NCBI RefSeq assembly: GCF_900240265.1
Contig: NZ_LT964739.1
Location: 534,693-598,692, forward strand
DNA from: Galactobacillus timonensis
GTDB lineage: Bacteria; Bacillota_I; Bacilli_A; Erysipelotrichales; Erysipelotrichaceae
Reading direction: 5' to 3'
DNA: 64,000 nt
In this document: piece by piece, positions 9,351 through 35,428 of the stretch
How positions within the stretch are numbered: the first letter of the stretch is position 1
Layout: each line of letters begins with the position of its first letter
Notes under the pieces: generated by a model
What the model saw: the letters and a program-made list of their open reading frames with translations, nothing else
The model's database searches: none
What the model was told of the DNA's origin: nothing
Made by a program: the position numbers and the translations under genes

Positions 9351-9572
9351 ATAAAAACGTCCCGAATGAAAGGACGTTCTCCACGCGGTACCACCTTTGT
9401 CTTGCCCCTTGCAGGGCCGCTCATTGTACACATAACGCGTGCGAACGGGCTGCACTGTTGGCACAGCCGGCTCCCGGTCCATGTTCCTTTCATCTGCCTG
9501 CACAGGTTTTCACCATCCCTGCTCACTCTTCCAGGACCCTGAAAGTACTCTTCCGTTCACTGCCTTTACACC
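9351..9572 (-). promoter_or_regulatory. T-box riboswitch leader of metG
   Basis: On the minus strand the conserved T-box core AAAGGTGGTACCGCG (9384-9398) precedes a terminator stem AACGTCC / GGGACGTT followed by TTTTTATT (9351-9379). This is the standard antiterminator/terminator arrangement that reads uncharged tRNA, presumably tRNA-Met given the downstream gene. A candidate Met specifier (ATG) occurs in the upstream hairpins near 9480, but I could not fold the leader fully. The stretch between the promoter and the next gene (9607-9869) shows nothing convincing. Confidence 0.9.
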
Positions 9573-24813: not shown

Positions 24814-24897
24814 GATCTGCGTCTGTACCAGATAAATAGCTTTTTAATCTATAAATCCCTTTTTGCACAGTGTTGGTAAATCTGCGTCTAGAACCGC

Positions 24898-25917
24898 TTA
24901 GTCATGCGGTTCTACGGAATAGTAATCTCGATATCTTAGCGTTTCTGGGATATATAGTGAGCTCACCAGCAGTACTTTGACTTTTTCCAGCGGCTCTGCA
25001 GGCGGATTCATCAGAAATGCAAACAGATCCAGATATCCCTGCAGTTCATCGCGTTCAAACCCGGAATGTGATCTCAGGAAAGCTTTCAGCAGAGCACATG
25101 CGTGGTTCACTTCTCTGAGAGGATTGTCCTTATCATCCAGTCTGATCAGATCTCGTGAATTATATTTCTTTTCGGTAAGGTTCAGATCCGATACCAGAAT
25201 TGAATGTGAACGCTCACTGTCATGGATCAGTATGGAGCCTTCCTGAATATGCTGGCTGAAGGCATTCCAGGTACTCTCTTTCGTAGGCTTTCCTTGATGG
25301 TTTTCGTAGATTGCAATTGTCTGCGTGCCATCAGTTCCAATTGCGATACACATCTTGTTTCTGGATATGCCTCTGTATTGTTTGCCGTCAATCAGCTGCC
25401 TGTGCTTTTTTCCCAGATCCCAGTATGTTTCATCGATCTGAACATTTCCGAACAGCACAATGTTCTCCTGATAGTTATCTAAGATTTTGAACAGCTTCGC
25501 ATCCCAATATTTCGTTGTTGTGAAGGAATTACGGCCATTCTTTGAGGCAAGACTCATACTTTCATAACCGATAATTCTCAGGAGCTGCTCAACCCATTCT
25601 GTGTACGGTATTTTATGATCTTCAAAAATGGTCCCGGTTGTGATGGTGAATGTCCTTCCGCAATCTTTGCAGAGATACCTGTTTACGCCATTTGAAGTAT
25701 GACCGTACTTGATGAAGTTTTCTGATCCGCAATGTCTGCATTGAAAGACCTGAAATGCATTCAGAAACTCTGCTTCTCCGGATTCTATCAGGCTTTGATG
25801 CCTGCGATCAAAGACTTCCACATACTGATCCTTAATGAACTGCTCGTACGGCGAAAGACTCTCCTTATAATCCCAGGGCGTACGGCGCCTGGAAGAGGTA
25901 AGCGATTGATTATACAT
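24898..25917 (-). CDS. IS1595-family transposase
   Basis: This 339-residue transposase has an N-terminal zinc ribbon (CRHCGSENFIKYG and CKDCGRTF, about residues 60-90). An ISXO2-like DDE domain follows: VQIDETYWDLG near 157, HDSERSHS near 232, and a late REVNHACALLKAFLRSH region. The start ATG follows a large hairpin whose 3' arm contains the only ribosome-binding-like GAGG. It stops at TAA just inside the left inverted repeat. Confidence 0.92.
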   Translation of the reverse strand: MYNQSLTSSRRRTPWDYKESLSPYEQFIKDQYVEVFDRRHQSLIESGEAEFLNAFQVFQCRHCGSENFIKYGHTSNGVNRYLCKDCGRTFTITTGTIFEDHKIPYTEWVEQLLRIIGYESMSLASKNGRNSFTTTKYWDAKLFKILDNYQENIVLFGNVQIDETYWDLGKKHRQLIDGKQYRGISRNKMCIAIGTDGTQTIAIYENHQGKPTKESTWNAFSQHIQEGSILIHDSERSHSILVSDLNLTEKKYNSRDLIRLDDKDNPLREVNHACALLKAFLRSHSGFERDELQGYLDLFAFLMNPPAEPLEKVKVLLVSSLYIPETLRYRDYYSVEPHD

Positions 25918-25968
25918 TTGTGGTAGACCTCAATACTTAAGTAAGCAGTCATGAGGAGGCCTACCACA
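25918..25968 (-). promoter_or_regulatory. Hairpin covering the transposase ribosome-binding site
   Basis: Directly before the transposase ATG lies the inverted repeat TGTGGTAG[G/A]CCTC / GAGGTCTACCACA. The GAGG Shine-Dalgarno is in the 3' arm. RNA entering from outside the element would form the hairpin and hide the site, a known way insertion sequences block activation by read-through. The MITE at 54438-54855 keeps an analogous hairpin. Confidence 0.55.
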
Positions 25969-26074
25969 GCTAACTCAGAACCACTTACCAAAGCGTTTTA
26001 GCTTTCTAGCCCCGTCGGGCTATCCAAATTATAGATTCTTCACCAACACTGTGCAAAAGCGGATTATAATCTAT

Positions 26075-26108
26075 TAATCCGTGAACCTTCCAGCTCACGG
26101 ATTTTTTT
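26075..26108 (+). terminator. Original terminator of the DUF4428 gene
   Basis: Stem AATCCGTGA / TCACGGATT followed by TTTTTT. It is now separated from its gene by the IS1595 insertion. Confidence 0.75.
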
Positions 26109-26189
26109 CGTCTTTCATCGGCACTGGGCGTTCTTCACGTATACGTCCGCAACCGCAGGAATCAGATTGCAGTAATGTGTCCCCTGTGC

Positions 26190-26212
26190 AAAAATCACGG
26201 CGTCGTGATCTG
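26190..26212 (-). terminator. Terminator of the AAA/WYL/UDG-like operon
   Basis: On the minus strand ATCACG / CGTGAT with a 4-nt loop is followed by TTTTG, just after the stop of the last gene. Confidence 0.6.
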
Positions 26213-26231
26213 AAGATGAATGCCGTCCTGC

Positions 26232-27020
26232 TTATTCGACCTTTGCACCGCTAATAATATGTTCGACCAGATCATCCAGTGACATTCCTTTCTTTTTGGA
26301 TCTCAAAATATACGCCGGATGGTAGGTCCAGTAAACCGGTACTGACAGTTTCGTCAGTGACTCATCAATCCGGACACAATAGCCTTCTGCATTTGCCGTC
26401 GGCCTGATCGCAGCCAATTGCTTTTTCTCAATCCTCAATGCAATGCTGAGAGATTTGGTGTAGTTAGGGCCAACCAGAAAAACAATTACGTCAGGCTTTA
26501 CAATTTCTATTTCCTTTTGTACCAGCGTCTTCTCATCCTTCCGTACGGGCGAATTGAAAATAACTTCATCATCGCCTGTTAATGGTATTGTCTTCCTGCT
26601 TTCAGGTTCAAACCGATGGAATTTATCCAGATTTGACCAAGCCGGATGCCAGCCCTGTTGAACTATTTTTCGAAAGAGAGACCAAAAAGGAGACTTATTC
26701 AATTTTTCGCGAGGCAAGTCCTGAGAGTCCTGGCCTGCCGAAATCATTCTCGTCTGATCGATCTGAGACATGGCATAACAAATCACCCAGTCCTGTATCC
26801 TCTCGAGAGAATTATCATTATCGAAATAAAAATTTCTCGCCTCCTGGCCGAACAGCAGAATGCGTCTGCCTACCGCTTCCGCATAATATTCGCTAATGCC
26901 CGGCACAAACACATCCGAATACAGTCCTTCTGTCGATTTCAGACGTTTCTGAACTGAGTCCGAGTTCAGCCAGTCCCGCGTCACGTTTCTCAACTGTTCA
27001 TTTACTTGATCCCGATTCAT
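26232..27020 (-). CDS. Protein with uracil-DNA-glycosylase-like fold motifs
   Basis: This 262-residue protein is not a familiar named family. It shows RILLFGQEARNFY at residues 53-65, EIVKPDVIVFLVGPNY at 172-187 and VYWTYHPAYILR at 229-240. Their order and shape match the UDG superfamily: an N-terminal Gly-rich motif, a hydrophobic strand ending in Gly, and the His-Pro motif before the DNA-inserting loop. Whether it excises a base is unknown. I chose the ATG at 27020 because GAGGG lies upstream; the gene overlaps the end of the WYL gene by 23 bp. It is last in the four-gene operon. Confidence 0.6.
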   Translation of the reverse strand: MNRDQVNEQLRNVTRDWLNSDSVQKRLKSTEGLYSDVFVPGISEYYAEAVGRRILLFGQEARNFYFDNDNSLERIQDWVICYAMSQIDQTRMISAGQDSQDLPREKLNKSPFWSLFRKIVQQGWHPAWSNLDKFHRFEPESRKTIPLTGDDEVIFNSPVRKDEKTLVQKEIEIVKPDVIVFLVGPNYTKSLSIALRIEKKQLAAIRPTANAEGYCVRIDESLTKLSVPVYWTYHPAYILRSKKKGMSLDDLVEHIISGAKVE

Positions 27021-28035
27021 TTTCAGCCCTCTTTTCTTCAATATATGCCTGTTGAATCCCGTCGATGAATTCAAGGAATTCGTTCTTTATTCTCTCCGGT
27101 TCTTCGATGACAATATTGCGCCCATATCCGGCAAGCCATTGATAGAAGCCTTCGGACGCAACTGCTTTCACATGGACCTTGAAGCTTCCGTCCGGCTGAT
27201 TGATCATCACAATGTTCTTTCCGAACTTCCTCTGAATATTTCTTCGGACCCATTTGGAACAGTGCAACGCCAGAGCCTCGGGCACACCGTTGTACATATG
27301 CACCGATTCCTTCAGATATTTGTTGATGCTGAAGGAAGAGCCCTGGTCCTTGAATTCACTGATTTCGCTGACCGGTCGGACCGGAAGTTCCGTTTCCGTA
27401 ATGTTCTCCATCAGATCGAGTTTAAAATGCGTCGCATGATCATGTTCCGACGGATTTGCGATGAGGTAATACTCATTCTCATAGAGCGGAAGATAATACG
27501 GACTTGCCGTATAGACCTTTCCGCCGCGATATGGTTCTTTCTTACCGTCCGGGCCGACAACCGTGTATTGAAAGGAAATCTGATGCCGGTCCATGATTGC
27601 ATGGAGGACAGTGTCAAACTTGATCTTGTTCGCCGCATCTTCCGATTTCAAGGAAGAGTCAATATAAGTGGTGGACGAAATCAGATTTCTTCCATTTTCT
27701 GTAGCCGCTGAAGCCAGCTTCTGAATCAGCTTTTCCGAATCTTTTTCCGTCAACCACGCCGCCGAAGCAACCGCATCCGCAAGGATCTTGAGCTCATAAT
27801 CTTCAAAGATCTGATCGGTCATATAGAACCCATCATTATGGTTCTCACATTTTTCGATGCTGAAGCCCGCTTCGCTGATAGTCTGAAGATCCCGGGCAAC
27901 CGACTTCCGCTCCGCATGAATCCCCTTTGCCTGAAGATGTTGAATGATCTGCGAGATATTCAATGGATGATCCGCATCCGTATGCTGCATGATTTCCAGA
28001 GTATAGAGTAATTTCAGCTTATTATTTTCTGCCAT
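26998..28035 (-). CDS. WYL-domain transcriptional regulator
   Basis: This 345-residue protein has an N-terminal winged HTH (about residues 5-70, including SVARDLQTISEAGF), a WYL domain (about 145-235, with YYLPLYENEYYLIA) and a C-terminal WCX-like extension (about 250-330). WYL proteins sense ligands, often nucleic acids or nucleotides, and frequently control anti-phage or DNA-damage operons. It is third in the operon, 50 bp after the second AAA gene. The inverted repeat upstream of the operon is a plausible operator. Confidence 0.9.
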   Translation of the reverse strand: MAENNKLKLLYTLEIMQHTDADHPLNISQIIQHLQAKGIHAERKSVARDLQTISEAGFSIEKCENHNDGFYMTDQIFEDYELKILADAVASAAWLTEKDSEKLIQKLASAATENGRNLISSTTYIDSSLKSEDAANKIKFDTVLHAIMDRHQISFQYTVVGPDGKKEPYRGGKVYTASPYYLPLYENEYYLIANPSEHDHATHFKLDLMENITETELPVRPVSEISEFKDQGSSFSINKYLKESVHMYNGVPEALALHCSKWVRRNIQRKFGKNIVMINQPDGSFKVHVKAVASEGFYQWLAGYGRNIVIEEPERIKNEFLEFIDGIQQAYIEEKRAENESGSSK

Positions 28036-28085
28036 CTCATTAAGCTCTTTATCAATGTCACTGTATCGTAGAGCTGCTTACGCAA

Positions 28086-29423
28086 TCAATTATTGAACCC
28101 AAAGAAGGATTTTTCATCAGTCGAACTTTCAGACTTCCTTCTGCACTCCTGAATCTGATCATCCAGAACAATTCCTTCCTGCAGAAGCATATTCGCCAAT
28201 GCATCTACAAACCGCTGATGTTTGATCAGAAGATACGACGCAATCCTCTCTGCGATGACCGCAAGTACCCGAATGTTGATATTGTTGTTCTCCTGATCCA
28301 GGCCGTTTTCATTTCCGCCCAAATCGAACCAGATACCGTCTTCACTGATTTCTTCAAGAAAATGATATACCTCTTCCAGTTGAACAACCGGTTCATTTTT
28401 CACGATTCCAAATTTCATGATATCAATCATTCTGGCCGCGGCATTTGCGATGATATCCCGCTCATAGATTGCTTCTTTTCCCGCAGAATATTCTCCATCC
28501 TCTCTCCGCTTGAGGATTGTACTGGCGGTTGTGCCACTGCTCATATAGATCGCCGCCACATCAACCGTACCCGGGGCCATCACTTCCAGTACGACTGTCT
28601 TCGCTGCCGTTTCATATGCTTCCTGCGGAAGGGACCTTTTTTCATTCTGCCTGTTGATTTCTTCCAGGCTGCAGCCTTGTCTGTCCTTAATAATACTTAG
28701 CCGCGCTAAGAAGAAGTCGAATGCAGTGATGCACGGGTGATTGTTGCTCGCAGCTTCCAGAACAGCCTGTTTCATAATGTTCTTAACTATTAACGGCGTT
28801 GTTTCCGGTGACGACAGAATCTTTGCAATCTTTTGCGGCGCAAGTTCCGTATTCATATTCCCGGCATTAAGGATCGGCTCGACGATCTCACGAATATCTT
28901 CCTGATCAATAGCTTCAAGATCCAGCGCAATATCAATTTTCCCAGGCCGGATCAGAGTCTCATAGTAATCGTATCGATCAGCAGTAAACACAATAAATAC
29001 ATTTTTACCTTCGATGGCATCCATGCATTCTTTCAGCTTGATTTCCAGGTGGGTTGATATTGTCGAATATTGATCCAGGTCATCCAGAAAAATGATCGAA
29101 GGTGTCTGATTTTCGGCCGCCGCAAAAACATCTGTGATCTGTCGATAGTTTGTTGTTAGCGGACTGATGTGATGAATCTGAAATGACGGCCGCCCCGATG
29201 CACGAATCAGGCAGTTTGCCAGTGTCGTTTTTCCGGCACCGTTTTTTCCAAACAGAATGATTCCGGAAGGATCACGGCTCCCCAGTGCCTTGAACTTTGG
29301 ATTGCCCCGGAGAATTTCCGCAATCCGCATCAGGAAGCCGCGAACATAGCGGTACCCCTTCACCGATTCAAATGCCTCGATGACTTCCGGATCAAACTCT
29401 TCACAGTTTTCATCTCTCGTCAT
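28086..29423 (-). CDS. Soluble FtsH-like AAA+ ATPase with dead M41-type peptidase domain (second copy)
   Basis: The protein has 445 residues and no transmembrane segment. The AAA+ core has Walker A GKNGAGKT (59-66), Walker B IIFLDDLD (110-117), and an FtsH-like second region of homology ending RPGK rather than RPGR. A helical region and an M41-like domain follow. Where FtsH has AYHEAGHA, this protein reads AYETAAKT (269-276), so both zinc His residues and the catalytic Glu are absent. The C-terminal LANMLLQEGIVL helix still resembles FtsH. ATP binding looks intact; proteolysis does not. Its start overlaps the first copy's stop by 4 bp. Confidence 0.8.
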   Translation of the reverse strand: MTRDENCEEFDPEVIEAFESVKGYRYVRGFLMRIAEILRGNPKFKALGSRDPSGIILFGKNGAGKTTLANCLIRASGRPSFQIHHISPLTTNYRQITDVFAAAENQTPSIIFLDDLDQYSTISTHLEIKLKECMDAIEGKNVFIVFTADRYDYYETLIRPGKIDIALDLEAIDQEDIREIVEPILNAGNMNTELAPQKIAKILSSPETTPLIVKNIMKQAVLEAASNNHPCITAFDFFLARLSIIKDRQGCSLEEINRQNEKRSLPQEAYETAAKTVVLEVMAPGTVDVAAIYMSSGTTASTILKRREDGEYSAGKEAIYERDIIANAAARMIDIMKFGIVKNEPVVQLEEVYHFLEEISEDGIWFDLGGNENGLDQENNNINIRVLAVIAERIASYLLIKHQRFVDALANMLLQEGIVLDDQIQECRRKSESSTDEKSFFGFNN

Positions 29424-30793
29424 ATGGATATCCTCTTATGGAAAACGGTCTGCTCAGATTGCGCACGCTTTTGTCGGCACTCCTGAATCTGTTCTTCCAG
29501 CAGAAATTCATTCTGTAAGAGTTCTTCGGCCAGCAGGTCGACAAATGATTCATTCTTCTTTAACAGGGATAAGGATGTTCTCTCTGCTTCTTTGATCAGG
29601 AGCCAGTACCAGTAATTCTTTAAACGTTCATTGGCATTTTCCACCGGAAAGAATCGTTCCGCATGGTCAAAGAAACCTTCCTGATCCATGTCCTCCAGCA
29701 CAGAATTGACCGACTCATTCTCTGAAAAGGGTGCCGGCTCACTCCTTCCGAACTTCATCAGACTGATCATTCTTGGCGAAGCGTCGATGATGGAAAATTT
29801 CCTGTCTTCCTCAATCCTTTGTTCCAAAAATGATTTCTTGCATTGATCCGGAACAGATCCCCAGCGGATTCCCCTGGCACCATGGAACCAGAAGACCCCT
29901 GCGATATGGGTACTTCCCGGGAAATACAGTTCCCAGAGGGCCGTTTTGGCAGCGATCTCATACGCTTTCTTTTGCATGCATGTTCTGTTGATATCCCTTT
30001 GTTCCTGATGAAATGCATACACCGGCGCTTCTTCATCGGCAGAAAGAAGAGCGTGGTAATAATTCGATACATGAATGGATGAATAGCCTGACTGAACCGC
30101 CTCATCCGCAGCTTCCTGAACAAAATTGCGAAGCCTTGCAGGCTCAAGCGCCAGCGGCCAGCCGAACAGTTTCAGAATTTCCTCCGGCGCAAGATCGGAA
30201 GATATGTTCAGCTCCTTCAGGGAAGACCGCAGAAAATCTACGGTGCATTTTTGATCCATCTCCAGACAATCAATGTAGATTTGTAAATCGATTCGTTCGC
30301 GGCTTACCAGTTTGGGATCGTAGGCATACGTCGGGTTACAGGCCACAAGTACAAAAACGTGTTTCCCGTGAACCGAATCAATGCAGTTCATTAACTCTTT
30401 CTTTATCTTTTCCGCAGTTGACTCATCCTGAAAGACATATGTTTCCAGATCAGCCAGATAGACAATGGAAGGCGCATGAGCCAGGGCCTCTTCAAATACA
30501 GAATGAATGATTGTGTCCCAGTTTCGATCCGGCCGGTCGATGCATATGCGATAGGCCTTCCTTCCGCTTGCCTGAATCAGACACTTTGCCAGCAGCGTTT
30601 TTCCCATGGCATCGTATCCATAAAGAAGGAGACCGGAAGGTTCGTGATCTCCGCTTTCATCAACATTCGGCGGATCTTTCAGTATTTTTGCGATGGTCAT
30701 CAGCCGTTTCTTTAAGTCAGAGAATCCCCATACAGGTTTAAAGGCCTTCATGATTTTGTCATCGAAGGATGGATTACTTTCTGCATTTTCCAT
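29420..30793 (-). CDS. Soluble FtsH-like AAA+ protein with dead M41-type peptidase domain (first copy)
   Basis: This 457-residue paralogue of the next gene has Walker A GYDAMGKT (59-66). Its Walker B position reads IVYLADLE, with Ala114 replacing the Mg-binding Asp, so ATP hydrolysis is probably impaired. The M41-like domain reads AYEIAAKT (277-284) in place of AYHEAGHA. The C-terminal helix (LAEELLQNEFLLEEQIQECR) matches the second copy. The pair may form a mixed ring with one hydrolysing and one weak subunit, which is an inference. It is first in the operon, with AAAGGAG upstream of the ATG. Confidence 0.8.
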   Translation of the reverse strand: MENAESNPSFDDKIMKAFKPVWGFSDLKKRLMTIAKILKDPPNVDESGDHEPSGLLLYGYDAMGKTLLAKCLIQASGRKAYRICIDRPDRNWDTIIHSVFEEALAHAPSIVYLADLETYVFQDESTAEKIKKELMNCIDSVHGKHVFVLVACNPTYAYDPKLVSRERIDLQIYIDCLEMDQKCTVDFLRSSLKELNISSDLAPEEILKLFGWPLALEPARLRNFVQEAADEAVQSGYSSIHVSNYYHALLSADEEAPVYAFHQEQRDINRTCMQKKAYEIAAKTALWELYFPGSTHIAGVFWFHGARGIRWGSVPDQCKKSFLEQRIEEDRKFSIIDASPRMISLMKFGRSEPAPFSENESVNSVLEDMDQEGFFDHAERFFPVENANERLKNYWYWLLIKEAERTSLSLLKKNESFVDLLAEELLQNEFLLEEQIQECRQKRAQSEQTVFHKRISI

Positions 30794-30826
30794 CGCCTGT
30801 TATCTCCTTTCGGAATTAACAATAAA

Positions 30827-30860
30827 GCCTATGCTGTACCAAAAATGGGACAGCATAGGC
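30827..30860 (-). promoter_or_regulatory. Inverted repeat upstream of the AAA/WYL operon (candidate operator)
   Basis: A perfect 11-bp inverted repeat GCCTATGCTGT / ACAGCATAGGC separated by 12 bp lies 34-67 bp before the first AAA gene's start codon. It could be an operator for the WYL regulator or an attenuator-like hairpin in the leader. It has no good T-run. Confidence 0.45.
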
Positions 30861-30870
30861 ATTCGGAAAT

Positions 30871-30897
30871 AAAAAAAGATCTGCCGAAGCAGATCTC
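30871..30897 (-). terminator. Terminator of the tmk-to-prsW operon
   Basis: Stem AGATCTGC / GCAGATCT with a 4-nt loop, followed on the minus strand by TTTTTTT, directly after the prsW stop codon. Confidence 0.9.
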
Positions 30898-30902
30898 ATG
30901 CA

Positions 30903-31637
30903 TCAGTAAATCGGACGGTCCGTCCTTGCTTCGCGCTTAATCAAACGATAGATGACGAAGTACATGATCACAACGAAGATCAGGAACACACCTGTACCCA
31001 TGTTGGAGTTCATTGAAGCCGTCGTATCATAGAAGGCATGCATCGCTACGGCAAGAAGGTATCCCAGCAGCATATTTGCAGTCTTACCTACGCCATCGCC
31101 ACGGCTGTCGCAGAACTTTGCCCGTGCATACATGATGCCCATGATGACCGAGAATCCAAAGTGTGCCGGAATTGCGAAGATTGCCCGCGAGAAGGCAACA
31201 CTCAGGCCATAGTTGAACACATAGAGAATGTTCTCAAACGCCGCAAAGCCAAGGGACACAAAGACCGAATACATCATCCCGTCGTAGGTATAGTTGAAGT
31301 TCAGGTTGTTCCAGGTACGCTTCTTGAGGAAGTAAAGCTTGCACCCTTCTTCAGTCAAACCTACAAACAGCATCTGTACGATGAGCAGCGTCATCTTATC
31401 CTGAATGTGGAAAGCCGGAATAATCAGGCCGTCCTCAATCCATTCCAGAACCATCGCCACCAGCGCCGCATAAACACCGCTCAGCGCCAGTCGCCATAAC
31501 AGTGCGGCCGGCTCCCTGTCCTGAGGCAGATCATTCACGTAGACATAACGCATCAGGAAGATGGCAGGAATCACTGCCGCACCGACGTAGATCGCAATTT
31601 CCATCAATGACAGGCTAAGCAAACCATAGAACAGCAT
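30903..31637 (-). CDS. prsW: PrsW-family intramembrane metalloprotease
   Basis: This 244-residue multi-spanning protein has all PrsW motifs: EEGCK (96-100), FAAFEN, PAHFGFSV and HAFYD. PrsW cleaves anti-sigma factors in Bacillus; the target here is unknown and no anti-sigma gene is present in the window. It lies 2 bp after rsmI, so it is cotranscribed with the tmk-holB-ricT-rsmI cluster. Confidence 0.9.
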   Translation of the reverse strand: MLFYGLLSLSLMEIAIYVGAAVIPAIFLMRYVYVNDLPQDREPAALLWRLALSGVYAALVAMVLEWIEDGLIIPAFHIQDKMTLLIVQMLFVGLTEEGCKLYFLKKRTWNNLNFNYTYDGMMYSVFVSLGFAAFENILYVFNYGLSVAFSRAIFAIPAHFGFSVIMGIMYARAKFCDSRGDGVGKTANMLLGYLLAVAMHAFYDTTASMNSNMGTGVFLIFVVIMYFVIYRLIKREARTDRPIY

Positions 31638-31639
31638 AT

Positions 31640-32491
31640 TCAGTTCCTCTTTTCATGTACCAGATCATAGAGAAGATTCCGAGCAACGCCTGTCCGCGAC
31701 GCGACTGCTTTCACGGCCGCATTCTTCGACAGTCCTTTTGCCGTCTCCTCATTAACCATGGCGATCAATACACCTTCATCCAGCTCCGGCTGAACCTGCT
31801 CAGCTCCCGCAATGACGACGACCATTTCTCCCTTGCGATCAGGAATCACTTCCAGAACTTCCGATATCGTACCACGCAGAAATTCCTCATGCACCTTGGT
31901 CAGTTCACGCGCAACACAGCACTTGCGATCACCGAACACGACCAGCGCATCCCGCAGCATCTTCTCAATCCGGTGCGGCGCCTCGTAGTACACCATCGTC
32001 ATCGGAAGTGACGCATATTCCTTCATCTTCTCGACCCGCGCATGTTCGCTGGGCGGCAGAAAACCGATAAAGACAAACGGCTGGACCACCAGTCCCGAAG
32101 CGACTAAGGCATCCACGCCGGCATTGGGACCGCTGACCGGAATCACATTGAATCCGGCGTCGATGATGGCGGGCACAAGTGTCTGCCCCGGATCATTGAT
32201 CAGGGGATAGCCCGCATCCGAGATCAGGGCAACATTTTTACCCTCTTCCAGCAGCGCCAGAATCCCCTTCGTACTCGGTTCTTCGTTGAACTTCTGATAC
32301 GAGATCAGGCGCTTGGAAATATCAAAGCGCTTCAGCAGAACACCCGACGTACGCGTATCTTCACAGGCAATGACATCGACACTCTTCAGCACATCGACAG
32401 CCCGCGGCGTGAATTCATCCATATTGCCGATCGGCGTAGCCACCAGATACAGCGACGCCTTTCCGTTTTCAAAACTGCGCTGGTCGTTCAT
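31640..32491 (-). CDS. rsmI: 16S rRNA 2'-O-ribose C1402 methyltransferase
   Basis: This 283-residue SAM-dependent tetrapyrrole-methylase-fold enzyme has LYLVATPIGN, ACEDTRTSGVLL, ISDAGYPLINDPG and YEAPHRI. It methylates C1402 of 16S rRNA. It starts one base after the ricT stop. The order holB-ricT-rsmI follows the usual Firmicutes cluster, with yabA and trmN6 genes missing here. Confidence 0.95.
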   Translation of the reverse strand: MNDQRSFENGKASLYLVATPIGNMDEFTPRAVDVLKSVDVIACEDTRTSGVLLKRFDISKRLISYQKFNEEPSTKGILALLEEGKNVALISDAGYPLINDPGQTLVPAIIDAGFNVIPVSGPNAGVDALVASGLVVQPFVFIGFLPPSEHARVEKMKEYASLPMTMVYYEAPHRIEKMLRDALVVFGDRKCCVARELTKVHEEFLRGTISEVLEVIPDRKGEMVVVIAGAEQVQPELDEGVLIAMVNEETAKGLSKNAAVKAVASRTGVARNLLYDLVHEKRN

Positions 32492-32492
32492 A

Positions 32493-33764
32493 TTACTCCG
32501 ACGTTTCTTCCTTGTGTCTGCTCTTGAAGCTGCGCACTTCTACATTTGCGCCCTGCGGACGATTGATTCTCCGGTTGTTGTTATTGTTGGAACTGCGGCG
32601 GTTACCACCACGGGTTCCTTCCGCCCTGTTATTATTTCTTGGCGCATCCGCCTTCCGCGGCTGCTTCCTGGCAGCGGCGGCCTTAGCCGGAGCAGCCTTG
32701 CGTGCACCTCCATCCGGTGTACGCTCCGGGCTTTTCTCCTGCTTTCTGCTTTCATCGCTGGTGGAGAAGTTCGTGCTGATCGGTCCGGAAGACATGTTGT
32801 TCTTATGGACGCCGGGGATCGTCGTTGCCGGCCGGGAGCGTCCGGGCCCCTTGCGGGCAACGGTGACGCCCTTGCGGACAATCGCCTTTTCGCGCAGATC
32901 CTCGAGCGTCACCTCCTGGAACGTTTCACTGTTTTCCAGACGTGCCGAATCATTCATGACATTCATGGAGGATACACGGTACATGGCGCCGTCATATTCG
33001 ACATGGGCGCCGATCTTGGGCAGCCCCTCGGTCAGCTCCTTGTACGTATCATTTTCATATTTCAGGCAGCACATCAGCTTGCCGCACATACCGGAGAGTT
33101 TCTCCGTATTGAGAGCGAGCAGCTGCGTCTTCGCCATATTGATGGAGATGACATCCATATGGGTCTTAAACCTTGAGCAGCAGCACTCCATGCCGCACAT
33201 GCCGATGCCGCCAACCATACGGGCCTTATCACGGTCACCGATCTGACGAAGTTCGATGCGGCACTGAAGACGAGCATTCAGACGATGCAGCAGCTCACGG
33301 AAATCGACGCGCTGATCCGCCTTGTACAGGAACAATATGTGCTGACGGTCGAGCATATATTCCGCCGACATCAGGTGCATGTTCAGTCCGAGATTCTTGA
33401 TCTCATTCTCGCACACATGGAAAGCTTCCCTGGAATACTGCTTGTTTTCCTCGTACATCGTACGGTCACGGCTGGTGGCGATGCGCTTGATCGGCTTCAT
33501 CGGCACATGGCTGTGGAAGAAATCCGTCTTCTTCGCGTCATCCGTTGCCTGCGCCAGTTCCAGACCCTTCTGCGTCTCAACGACGACCCAGTCGCCCTTG
33601 TGACACGCATCGTCATAGGCGCCGAACGAATAGCTGCGGTTCGAGCTTTCAAAGCGCACCGGAATCATATAGGGATAGGGAGAAACGGGCTTGTCTTCCG
33701 GTTTGGCTTCCGTATCCTTTACTTCCATTTCATCTGTATCATTCACTTTGATTGTTTCACTCAT
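32493..33764 (-). CDS. ricT: RicT/YaaT (PSP1-domain) protein
   Basis: This 423-residue protein has a PSP1 domain and the Cys clusters GMCGMECCCSRF and GMCGKLMCC, which in RicT help bind [4Fe-4S] clusters. RicT works with RicA and RicF as an RNase Y specificity complex. The C-terminal 130 residues are disordered and rich in Lys, Arg and Asn. The start codon now follows the iscB stop by six bases (TGA-AATTTT-ATG) with no Shine-Dalgarno, because the IscB element is inserted immediately upstream. Translation may depend on reinitiation from iscB. Confidence 0.92.
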   Translation of the reverse strand: MSETIKVNDTDEMEVKDTEAKPEDKPVSPYPYMIPVRFESSNRSYSFGAYDDACHKGDWVVVETQKGLELAQATDDAKKTDFFHSHVPMKPIKRIATSRDRTMYEENKQYSREAFHVCENEIKNLGLNMHLMSAEYMLDRQHILFLYKADQRVDFRELLHRLNARLQCRIELRQIGDRDKARMVGGIGMCGMECCCSRFKTHMDVISINMAKTQLLALNTEKLSGMCGKLMCCLKYENDTYKELTEGLPKIGAHVEYDGAMYRVSSMNVMNDSARLENSETFQEVTLEDLREKAIVRKGVTVARKGPGRSRPATTIPGVHKNNMSSGPISTNFSTSDESRKQEKSPERTPDGGARKAAPAKAAAARKQPRKADAPRNNNRAEGTRGGNRRSSNNNNNRRINRPQGANVEVRSFKSRHKEETSE

Positions 33765-33770
33765 AAAATT

Positions 33771-35075
33771 TCAGGCGAGGAAACCCACGGATTCATTCGT
33801 GGGAGGAATCGCCTTTCTCCTTTCCAGCAACGCCCCTGCGTTGCAATGCTGAACTGAAAACTTTCTGAAGCTCAGCGATCCACCGCTCACTTTGGCACCG
33901 TCAAGTGTGCGAATATCCATCTGCCCAGATGTCCTGCGCCCGAATATGAAATACGTGTTTCTGGCGTACTTCACGGAGTCAAACAGCCGGCACCCTTTCA
34001 CCACATGAGGGGCCTGATTGCGTTTGCGGATACCGCCTTTCAGGATCTTGTTTTTGTGAATCTGGCGGTTATGCCTCCGCACAGCTTTGGCAAAATACCA
34101 GACATCATCCGGCACGGCGGTGAAGTGCTTGCTGATGACGATGGCATCGTTGATGTGAGACTTTTCGATGCGATACAGATCACGGTACAGCTTCGTGATA
34201 TAGCCGTATGTTCCATTCACCGGGATGCCTGGTTCTGCGCGCAGACGCTCCAGCATCGTTTTGCGCATAATGCCCATGAATGCCGCATCGCGCAGAGACT
34301 TTGTGCCGCGTTTAGCTTTACGAGCATGAAGCGTTTTTGTGCCGGCATGAATCGCTTTGTGGCAGTCTTCACACAGCGTGATCAGATTGCCGGGCGCATT
34401 GCCGCCGGTTTTGCGGCTTTCCAGATGATGCACATGGAACTTCACACCATCACCGTGCTTCCCGCAGCACTGACAGGTGTAGTTATCACGTTTCAAAACA
34501 TACTGACGAACGTTATAACTGTCGTACATCTCGCCAAGCTGATAATCAGTGCCGACCGGAAGGGGCCTGCCTTCTTCCACCGCCTTCATGCGCTGTGTGT
34601 CAAACTCTGCAGTCTCTACATGAACTTCCGTAATCGGAAGAATCTGCTGTACGTGTTTGATCGCAGTGATGTGCTCCTGGATCTTTACCTCAACAGACGG
34701 TGCCAGCCAGCCTTTGCGCTTGGCATGCACACGATTGTCGAAACGCACTTTGCGGTAACGCGTCTTACGATTCCGGCGGGATCTTCTATTCTGCCGCCTA
34801 ACAGACATCAGATTTACGACGTCATTGCGAGGCGTCAGTTCTTCTGCAAACAGCACCTCTTTTTCAGTTGTGGCGGCAATGCCGATATGCTTACTTCCGG
34901 CATCAACGCCAAGTGATACAGGCTGCTTATATCCCGAACTTCCATACAGAAGCCGGATCGTGAAAGGCATCTGCTTCGCAACAACTGCTTTCTGCTGTTT
35001 CAGCAGCAGCCTTGCTTTTTTCGGATTACACGGCATCAGCGGATTGCCGTGTTTGTTAAGCACAAAGACTTTCAT
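33771..35075 (-). CDS. iscB: IscB RNA-guided nuclease
   Basis: This 434-residue protein has the full IscB layout. The PLMP domain contains NPLMPC (11-16). RuvC-I is SLGVDAGSKHIGI with Asp58. An Arg-rich bridge helix spans about 93-107. RuvC-II is VHVETAEFD with Glu154. The HNH domain has CQCCG, FHVHHLES (His216/217), GNLITLCEDCH. RuvC-III is SHINDAI with Asp310. All catalytic residues are present. IscB proteins are Cas9-related nucleases of IS200/IS605-type elements, guided by an omega RNA encoded just upstream. AAAGGA precedes the ATG. Confidence 0.95.
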   Translation of the reverse strand: MKVFVLNKHGNPLMPCNPKKARLLLKQQKAVVAKQMPFTIRLLYGSSGYKQPVSLGVDAGSKHIGIAATTEKEVLFAEELTPRNDVVNLMSVRRQNRRSRRNRKTRYRKVRFDNRVHAKRKGWLAPSVEVKIQEHITAIKHVQQILPITEVHVETAEFDTQRMKAVEEGRPLPVGTDYQLGEMYDSYNVRQYVLKRDNYTCQCCGKHGDGVKFHVHHLESRKTGGNAPGNLITLCEDCHKAIHAGTKTLHARKAKRGTKSLRDAAFMGIMRKTMLERLRAEPGIPVNGTYGYITKLYRDLYRIEKSHINDAIVISKHFTAVPDDVWYFAKAVRRHNRQIHKNKILKGGIRKRNQAPHVVKGCRLFDSVKYARNTYFIFGRRTSGQMDIRTLDGAKVSGGSLSFRKFSVQHCNAGALLERRKAIPPTNESVGFLA

Positions 35076-35428
35076 AATGCCGTCCTTTCATTAAGTGCCA
35101 GATCAATGACGGAGAACAGATCTCCGTCCGGCATCTGGCTGCCGTAGTGAAGCAGAATGCCGGTCTGCTTCGATGCCTTCGCCAATGTTGTCAGTGCTTT
35201 TTACACCTGCCGCACCGCTCCTTTCCCTCAGAGCTTTTAACGACAGGTCCAAGAGCCGCAGATTAGGCATTACGTCCACGGGTTTGATGACAGAGACAAC
35301 GTAGTACTGTTAGCGCACATGGCTTGTGCAACAGTACTCAGGCTATTCAGTTAGTGCTTGCGCACTACGGCATGAGGCGATGGGATCTTTTACAATCCCA
35401 CGTGCTTCAACCGTGGGTTACTGAAGCT
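35076..35428 (-). ncRNA. Omega RNA (HEARO-type) of the IscB element
   Basis: About 350 bp of structured non-coding sequence lie directly upstream of iscB on its strand, where the HEARO/omega RNA is found in IscB loci. Visible stems include CCCACG / CGTGGG at the 5' end, AGTGCGCAAGCACT, and AGTACTGTTGC / GCACATGGCTTGTGC-type pairings near 35310-35340. In IscB the guide is at the RNA 5' end, so it would come from the flanking holB sequence ending GGTAAGTAA. Exact ends and fold need computation. Confidence 0.75.
35397..35417 (-). repeat. Left-end hairpin of the IscB element
   Basis: CCCACG / CGTGGG stem with a 9-nt loop. The right-end hairpin at 33784-33803 has the identical stem with an 8-nt loop. 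The holB reading frame now terminates inside this hairpin. Confidence 0.7.

Follow-up and report, generated by a model that had tools for sequence, protein, structure and literature searches.

A WYL-linked operon encoding paired, protease-dead FtsH-like AAA+ proteins and a protein of predicted UDG fold in Galactobacillus timonensis

A four-gene operon in G. timonensis

A stretch of 64,000 nucleotides (nt) of the Galactobacillus timonensis genome (contig NZ_LT964739.1, positions 534,693 to 598,692 of the forward strand), referred to here as the window, carries a four-gene operon that encodes two FtsH-like AAA+ paralogues devoid of the protease motif HExxH (A and B), a WYL-domain transcription factor, and a protein (U) with a predicted fold of the uracil-DNA glycosylase (UDG) superfamily. 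The loss of HExxH is shared by the A and B orthologues that were found, and neighborhoods that join a WYL gene to an AAA-M41 gene or to a U homologue recur elsewhere. The operon is real, rare, and coherent, and the family libraries used recognize only its single domains. This gut bacterium apparently acquired the cluster, pairs of whose components also turn up in distant bacteria, so that it may represent a novel type of defense or DNA-stress unit. Our favored reading, held tentatively, is that of an acquired accessory operon switched by the WYL protein, with a job that probably consists of acting on invading or damaged DNA. The four genes are as follows.

29420 to 30793, minus strand: A, open reading frame of 457 amino acids
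28086 to 29423, minus strand: B, open reading frame of 445 amino acids
26998 to 28035, minus strand: WYL plus WCX transcription factor, open reading frame of 345 amino acids
26232 to 27020, minus strand: U, protein of predicted UDG-superfamily fold, 262 amino acids from its ATG

A and B overlap by 4 nt and the WYL gene and U by 23 nt, with a gap of 50 nt between B and the WYL gene, and the four genes together span 26232 to 30793; an alternative TTG start at 27074 would lengthen U to 280 amino acids. An earlier reading of this DNA from its letters alone (the sequence-only reading) had proposed this tightly packed arrangement, and it was recovered as proposed. The same reading had placed a single terminator at the 3' end of the operon; a terminator scan of 25900 to 31000 found none on the minus strand 3' of U, where an IS1595-like element lies.

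A and B are FtsH-like AAA+ proteins that have lost HExxH

Relatives were sought among 5.8 billion proteins, the best 7999 (A) and 7995 (B) candidates by words in common being scored. Besides near-identical copies, at least two relatives of A (55 to 57% identity) and at least three of B (54 to 59%) were found, and U had three (60 to 63%) among the 5.8 billion; the A/B/U family is rare. The longest contigs of P0002 (B type) and P0017 (A type) have the same length, 4428, and presumably carry A and B as a pair too.

Both window proteins matched the Pfam AAA model above its cutoff (A, 45.8 bits; B, 50 bits), and M41 was matched by A only, below threshold and over a C-terminal stretch (14.6 bits). 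As the sequence-only reading had claimed, the zinc motif is replaced, by AYEIAAKT in A and AYETAAKT in B. Both histidines and the glutamate of HExxH were absent from all seven A/B-type proteins, window included, whereas the motif was intact in 15 of 15 more distant AAA homologues. Therefore, the loss looks derived and subsequently kept. An intact protease domain in homologues, which would have told against the sequence-only reading, is thus indicated by HExxH for the distant AAA proteins and for none of A, B, and their five orthologues. The downstream Asp that serves as third zinc ligand is replaced by Glu in A and by Gln in B; at this position the orthologues have Asp (P0017), Glu (P0018), or Gln (P0002 to P0004). 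Since the A type includes Asp, the claim of a lost zinc site is made for HExxH alone.

Walker A is present in A and B, and its GKT was found in 7/7 A/B-type proteins. The loss of the Walker-B Asp from one copy, also part of the sequence-only reading, is seen in window A (LADL) but is not a fixed trait; both A orthologues found have LDDL, and the loss was therefore rejected as a design feature. Likewise, neither protein has the N-terminal transmembrane anchor of FtsH (peak 19-residue hydropathy, 1.15 for A and 1.56 for B; AAA domain from residue 55 by Pfam), but this is no special loss, as a length too short for an anchor, from which its absence in the relatives was judged, is common to the whole set of short relatives. 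The predicted structure of B has the FtsH fold, with motor chains of Ycf2-FtsHi among its top structural matches; the model includes stretches with a predicted local distance difference test score below 50, two of them within the pseudo-protease part (residues 309 to 315 and 358 to 375). A mixed A/B ring is plausible, the basis for the mixed-hexamer idea being solely that the two are adjacent, overlapping paralogues.

It could be argued that A and B are decaying genes, that is, protease remnants with no present function, because HExxH is gone from both and the Walker-B Asp is gone from this strain's A. However, the frames are open at full length, orthologues at the identities given above exist for each protein, and GKT is retained in all seven A/B-type proteins, so that decay is very improbable.

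U has a predicted UDG-superfamily fold

The assignment of U to the UDG superfamily, put forward from motifs, was borne out after structure prediction, in that the predicted model matched UDG structurally. The Pfam UDG model scored slightly below its cutoff (22.5 versus 24.3 bits), and the U profile, searched by sequence against solved structures, returned nothing meaningful; the fold therefore rests on the predicted model, for which Foldseek was weak by itself (best E value, 2.1e-04). The residues concerned are GQE (58 to 60), F112, N130, and TYHP (232 to 235). TYHP, with the histidine of UDG motif II, occurs in 10/10 rows of the U alignment (A9) and GQE in 8/10. UDGs of family 4 hold an iron-sulfur cluster by four cysteines; U has two, Cys81 and Cys215. 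A UDG-like protein of 234 amino acids near an AAA-WYL pair (L107; 15.5 bits) was rejected as a U homologue, the profile comparison giving a probability of 1%.

WYL is linked pairwise to AAA-M41 and to U

The third gene was confirmed as encoding a WYL regulator, with both the WYL domain (34.9 bits; cutoff, 21.8) and the WCX domain (33 bits; cutoff, 23.9) above the Pfam cutoffs; PADLOC matched it to generic WYL models. Short active AAA-M41 genes were collected from 13 genomes (5 of 272 Erysipelotrichaceae and 8 of 391 Clostridia). The eight Clostridia loci were chosen by a gap in score (E ≤ 3.4e-83, the next being 2.2e-75) and by short frames, with at most four candidates scored per genome and a group of about 510 to 525 amino acids just under the gap left out. 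Twelve of these 13 genomes contain Pfam WYL genes (27 genes), and six of these are found no more than 3 kb from the AAA gene, distributed over 5 of the 13 loci, against an expectation of 0.07 drawn from whole-genome averages, one AAA locus (G642) being truncated by a contig end. WYL-AAA is the best supported pairing. In a tree of 32 WYL proteins, a supported clade unites the AAA-side WYL proteins of L107, L152, and L155 with the U-side protein of L158 and with L171; the neighborhood labels needed four changes on this tree, a number equally low in 7 of 500 shuffles, which indicates modest clustering.

A wider U profile had matches in 5 of the 391 Clostridia genomes, and a WYL gene was near in both strong cases. 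At L158, U is followed 63 nt further by WYL on the same strand; at L167, WYL, two small genes, and U lie on the same strand. The genomes of L158 and L167 each carry an active AAA gene at another place. The weaker U-like proteins L168, L169, and L170 (49, 42, and 30 bits) had no WYL in the stretch fetched and were set aside as support for the U-WYL pairing. Together, these results show that AAA, WYL, and U are linked as pairs, and a fixed triple was not seen in the genomes searched. Thus, the co-occurrence of all four families, suggested as a check by the sequence-only reading, held for the WYL-AAA and WYL-U neighborhoods and was not seen for the full set, and its conserved unit was not established, as no second complete four-gene operon turned up in the genomes searched.

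The two small genes of L167 (9075 to 9953, minus strand) encode 186 and 105 amino acids and form a tightly packed run with their neighbors. At L110, L112, and L157, judged by eye, the short active AAA-M41 gene shares its stretch with a MoxR-like ATPase of 371 amino acids and a protein of 420 to 435 amino acids beside it, and L109 to L112 have an additional protein of 169 to 190 amino acids (DUF6847 in L112; 27.4 bits).

This linkage also invites the reading that AAA-WYL serves mobile elements as a regulatory switch, in which the AAA protein would degrade or, here, unfold a repressor such as WYL, with U as cargo. The strength of the WYL-AAA pairing, the insertion sequence that adjoins the window operon, and an active AAA relative on the Butyrivibrio plasmid pCY186, accompanied within 12 kb by two WYL genes and several replication genes, would all fit. 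At L158 and L167, however, U lies beside or near WYL with no adjacent AAA-M41 gene, so U seems to be more than cargo of the AAA gene, and we consider such a switch improbable.

Distribution of the family and flanks of the operon

Among the 272 Erysipelotrichaceae genomes, B had matches at E ≤ 1e-25 in five, all short relatives with HExxH intact, and U in one (G144, homologue L108). Among 395 genomes sampled from the class of the window, U had no match at E 1e-6, and this sample need not include any known U-bearing genome. A genome scan with the A/B alignment gave 159 pattern matches and no confirmed relative; none was confirmed in viral scans either, whether the query was U, A/B, B, or the U alignment, and plasmids and phages gave no tblastn match to U. 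With B, tblastn against plasmids returned 25 records, all below 60% identity, the best being the active Butyrivibrio relative; 8 of 20 among the plasmid matches listed are annotated as FtsH type. The neighboring gene at 32493 to 33764, presumably PSP1-like, is matched best by rumen Erysipelotrichaceae, of which many are named Solobacterium, L055 being nearest. In the 59 loci of the scan with this gene (L001 to L059), homologues of the genes at 31640 and 30903 were present in 57 and 47, respectively, and the genes beyond the PrsW-like one varied (by eye). No U- or WYL-like open reading frame was found there, and no A/B-like one apart from a weak AAA match of 18.7 bits (L044), in a list that excluded AAA frames above 500 amino acids.

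The 1-kb bins of the operon have GC contents of 44 to 47% and the bins at 23 to 26 kb, to its left, of 44 to 48%; the remaining bins between 18 and 38 kb range from 51.5 to 56%. Three features adjoin the operon.

30824 to 30863: imperfect palindrome and candidate operator, 18-nt arms (89% complementary) with a 4-nt spacer, 30 nt 5' of the start codon of A
30876 to 30897, minus strand: terminator-like hairpin of the upstream PrsW-like gene, which it separates from the operon
24854 to 26065, minus strand: IS1595-family element downstream of the operon, transposase at 24898 to 25917

The inverted repeats of the element (24854 to 24880 and 26039 to 26065) are 27 nt long and 89% complementary. The palindrome scored 12, versus a maximum of 10 in 300 shuffles by a purpose-written script that was not checked against a standard routine. 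An operator common to related loci was not found in 13 upstream stretches, of which only that of the L151 AAA gene exceeded all 60 shuffles; the palindrome upstream of the L107 AAA gene was matched by 1 of 60.

A PADLOC scan of 10 flanking genes gave a single match, through the HNH part of an IscB-like protein. This protein (33771 to 35425, minus strand; RRXRR plus HNH; 434 amino acids) is encoded between the genes at 32493 and 35407, and an adjoining HEARO RNA (108 bits) suggests an IscB with its likely omega-RNA. A T-box leader (97.5 bits) lies at 9367 to 9569 on the minus strand.

Possible function

Proximity to defense genes, the other check suggested by the sequence-only reading, was thus not seen among the 10 flanking genes scanned; it was seen near U homologues. 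The L108 stretch has a type II methyltransferase, a MutH-domain type II restriction enzyme, an AAA_5 protein, and McrC, and L158 has an AAA/AAA_5 protein, a DUF2201 protein, and a reverse transcriptase that matches the Ec107-like retron model (395 bits). The U-like gene of L168 lies amid an HsdR-like fragment and phage-like genes (both by eye) and a protein matching PADLOC HEC-05/PDC-M55C; L169 and L170 showed no restriction genes by eye. An anti-phage role remains an inference, one that the restriction genes, McrC, and retron-type reverse transcriptase near U homologues make more likely.

In the reading that we favor, the WYL protein would detect infection or DNA damage through a nucleic-acid signal and control the operon, perhaps via the palindrome in front of A. 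Precedents for WYL proteins as nucleic-acid-sensing switches exist (PMC10693628 and PMC9122601), including a single-stranded DNA-binding WYL factor responsive to genotoxic stress (PMC10693628). U would be a DNA glycosylase-like effector, or a base or lesion reader, of UDG fold, and A and B would assemble into an AAA+ ring, soluble and probably mixed, whose target for unfolding or remodeling would be a DNA-bound protein or U itself. With the ancestral M41 active site gone from both, such a ring would be unable to cut this target. By analogy, the best-supported sketch takes Brig1 and Brig3 as precedents for U as a glycosylase-like effector (PMC11078745 and PMC13160076) and FtsHi as the precedent for A/B as a nonproteolytic AAA+ remodeler (PMC9020784). 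A bolder version, which we regard as unlikely, is a WYL-switched anti-phage system in which the protease-dead mixed ring would remodel phage nucleoprotein so that U could remove modified bases from the DNA of the phage; the ring would then be the bacterial equivalent of the FtsHi motor, evolved from a WYL-linked active AAA-M41 protease.

A DNA-damage or stress unit rather than phage defense is also conceivable, if somewhat doubtful: WYL would induce a repair-type glycosylase-like protein together with an AAA+ machine that clears proteins off lesions. The precedent of genotoxic stress and single-stranded DNA binding (PMC10693628), the repair-enzyme fold of U, and the lack of a clear defense gene among the 10 flanking genes scanned are consistent with it, whereas the patchy distribution, the low GC content, and the restriction and reverse transcriptase genes near U homologues fit an accessory defense or mobile role better than they do core repair.

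Several observations weigh against the favored reading of an accessory operon acting on invading or damaged DNA. U lacks GExPG, the motif I observed in the family-4 genes compared (it has GQEARNF), and the U homologue of L167 has GQQ and WNDIDK, so that E60 and N130 are both variable. Window A, lacking its Walker-B residue, may be impaired in this strain. The window WYL protein, on a long branch that is unplaced, does not belong to the supported clade, and neither do the L151 and L167 proteins; WYL is absent or more than 3 kb away at 8 of the 13 AAA loci; and G144, the genome of U homologue L108, has no match to the window WYL at E 1e-8 and no reported short AAA. Few related loci show an equivalent of the palindrome, the complete operon is known from this window only among the genomes searched, and no defense family adjoins it by PADLOC, which assigned no family to A or U and reached B through the AAA core only. 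The recurring WYL-AAA-M41 and WYL-U neighborhoods provide a handle for finding WYL-controlled defense or DNA-stress modules.

Comparison with known systems

Each type of component is known; their combination, and paired anchor-less pseudo-FtsH proteins, are undescribed in the openly licensed PubMed Central papers found, which were available in part. A and B share the AAA core of FtsH (M41), less the Walker-B Asp in window A, and differ from it in having neither a transmembrane segment nor HExxH. The Walker B of FtsH is Asp-Glu, and that of the short AAA clade is Asp-Asp (21 of 22 proteins), as in the A/B type, window A (LADL) excepted. IetAS resembles the operon through a weak match of B to IetA (E 4.8e-05; residues 39 to 118) that covers the AAA core only. 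IetA has a protease partner, whereas the operon has no separate protease gene. As with BrxR and SiwR, a WYL regulator stands beside genes presumably under its control, but here its companions form a set of genes that does not occur in any of the papers found.

The best structural match of Brig1, like that of U, is a family-4 UDG, and Brig genes lie in defense islands; Brig1 confers immunity by itself, and Brig3 does so alone or with the glucosyl hydrolase BapA (PMC11078745 and PMC13160076). U shares the UDG-superfamily fold with both, a likeness of fold and not one drawn from sequence comparison, and differs in its operon, as the available text on Brig1 and Brig3 mentions no AAA or WYL partner. 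Chloroplast FtsHi comprises several FtsH paralogues without HExxH, which associate with FtsH12 and Ycf2 in complexes (PMC9020784). A and B are likewise FtsH-like and lack HExxH, the fold having been predicted for B only; FtsHi are plant and algal envelope proteins, whereas A and B are short, anchor-less, and bacterial, and are nearest to a different short clade. In the papers found, as far as their available parts go, protease-dead FtsH paralogues have so far come from plants and algae, and a paired, anchor-less version kept in a bacterial operon would show that the same path to a nonproteolytic motor has been taken in bacteria.
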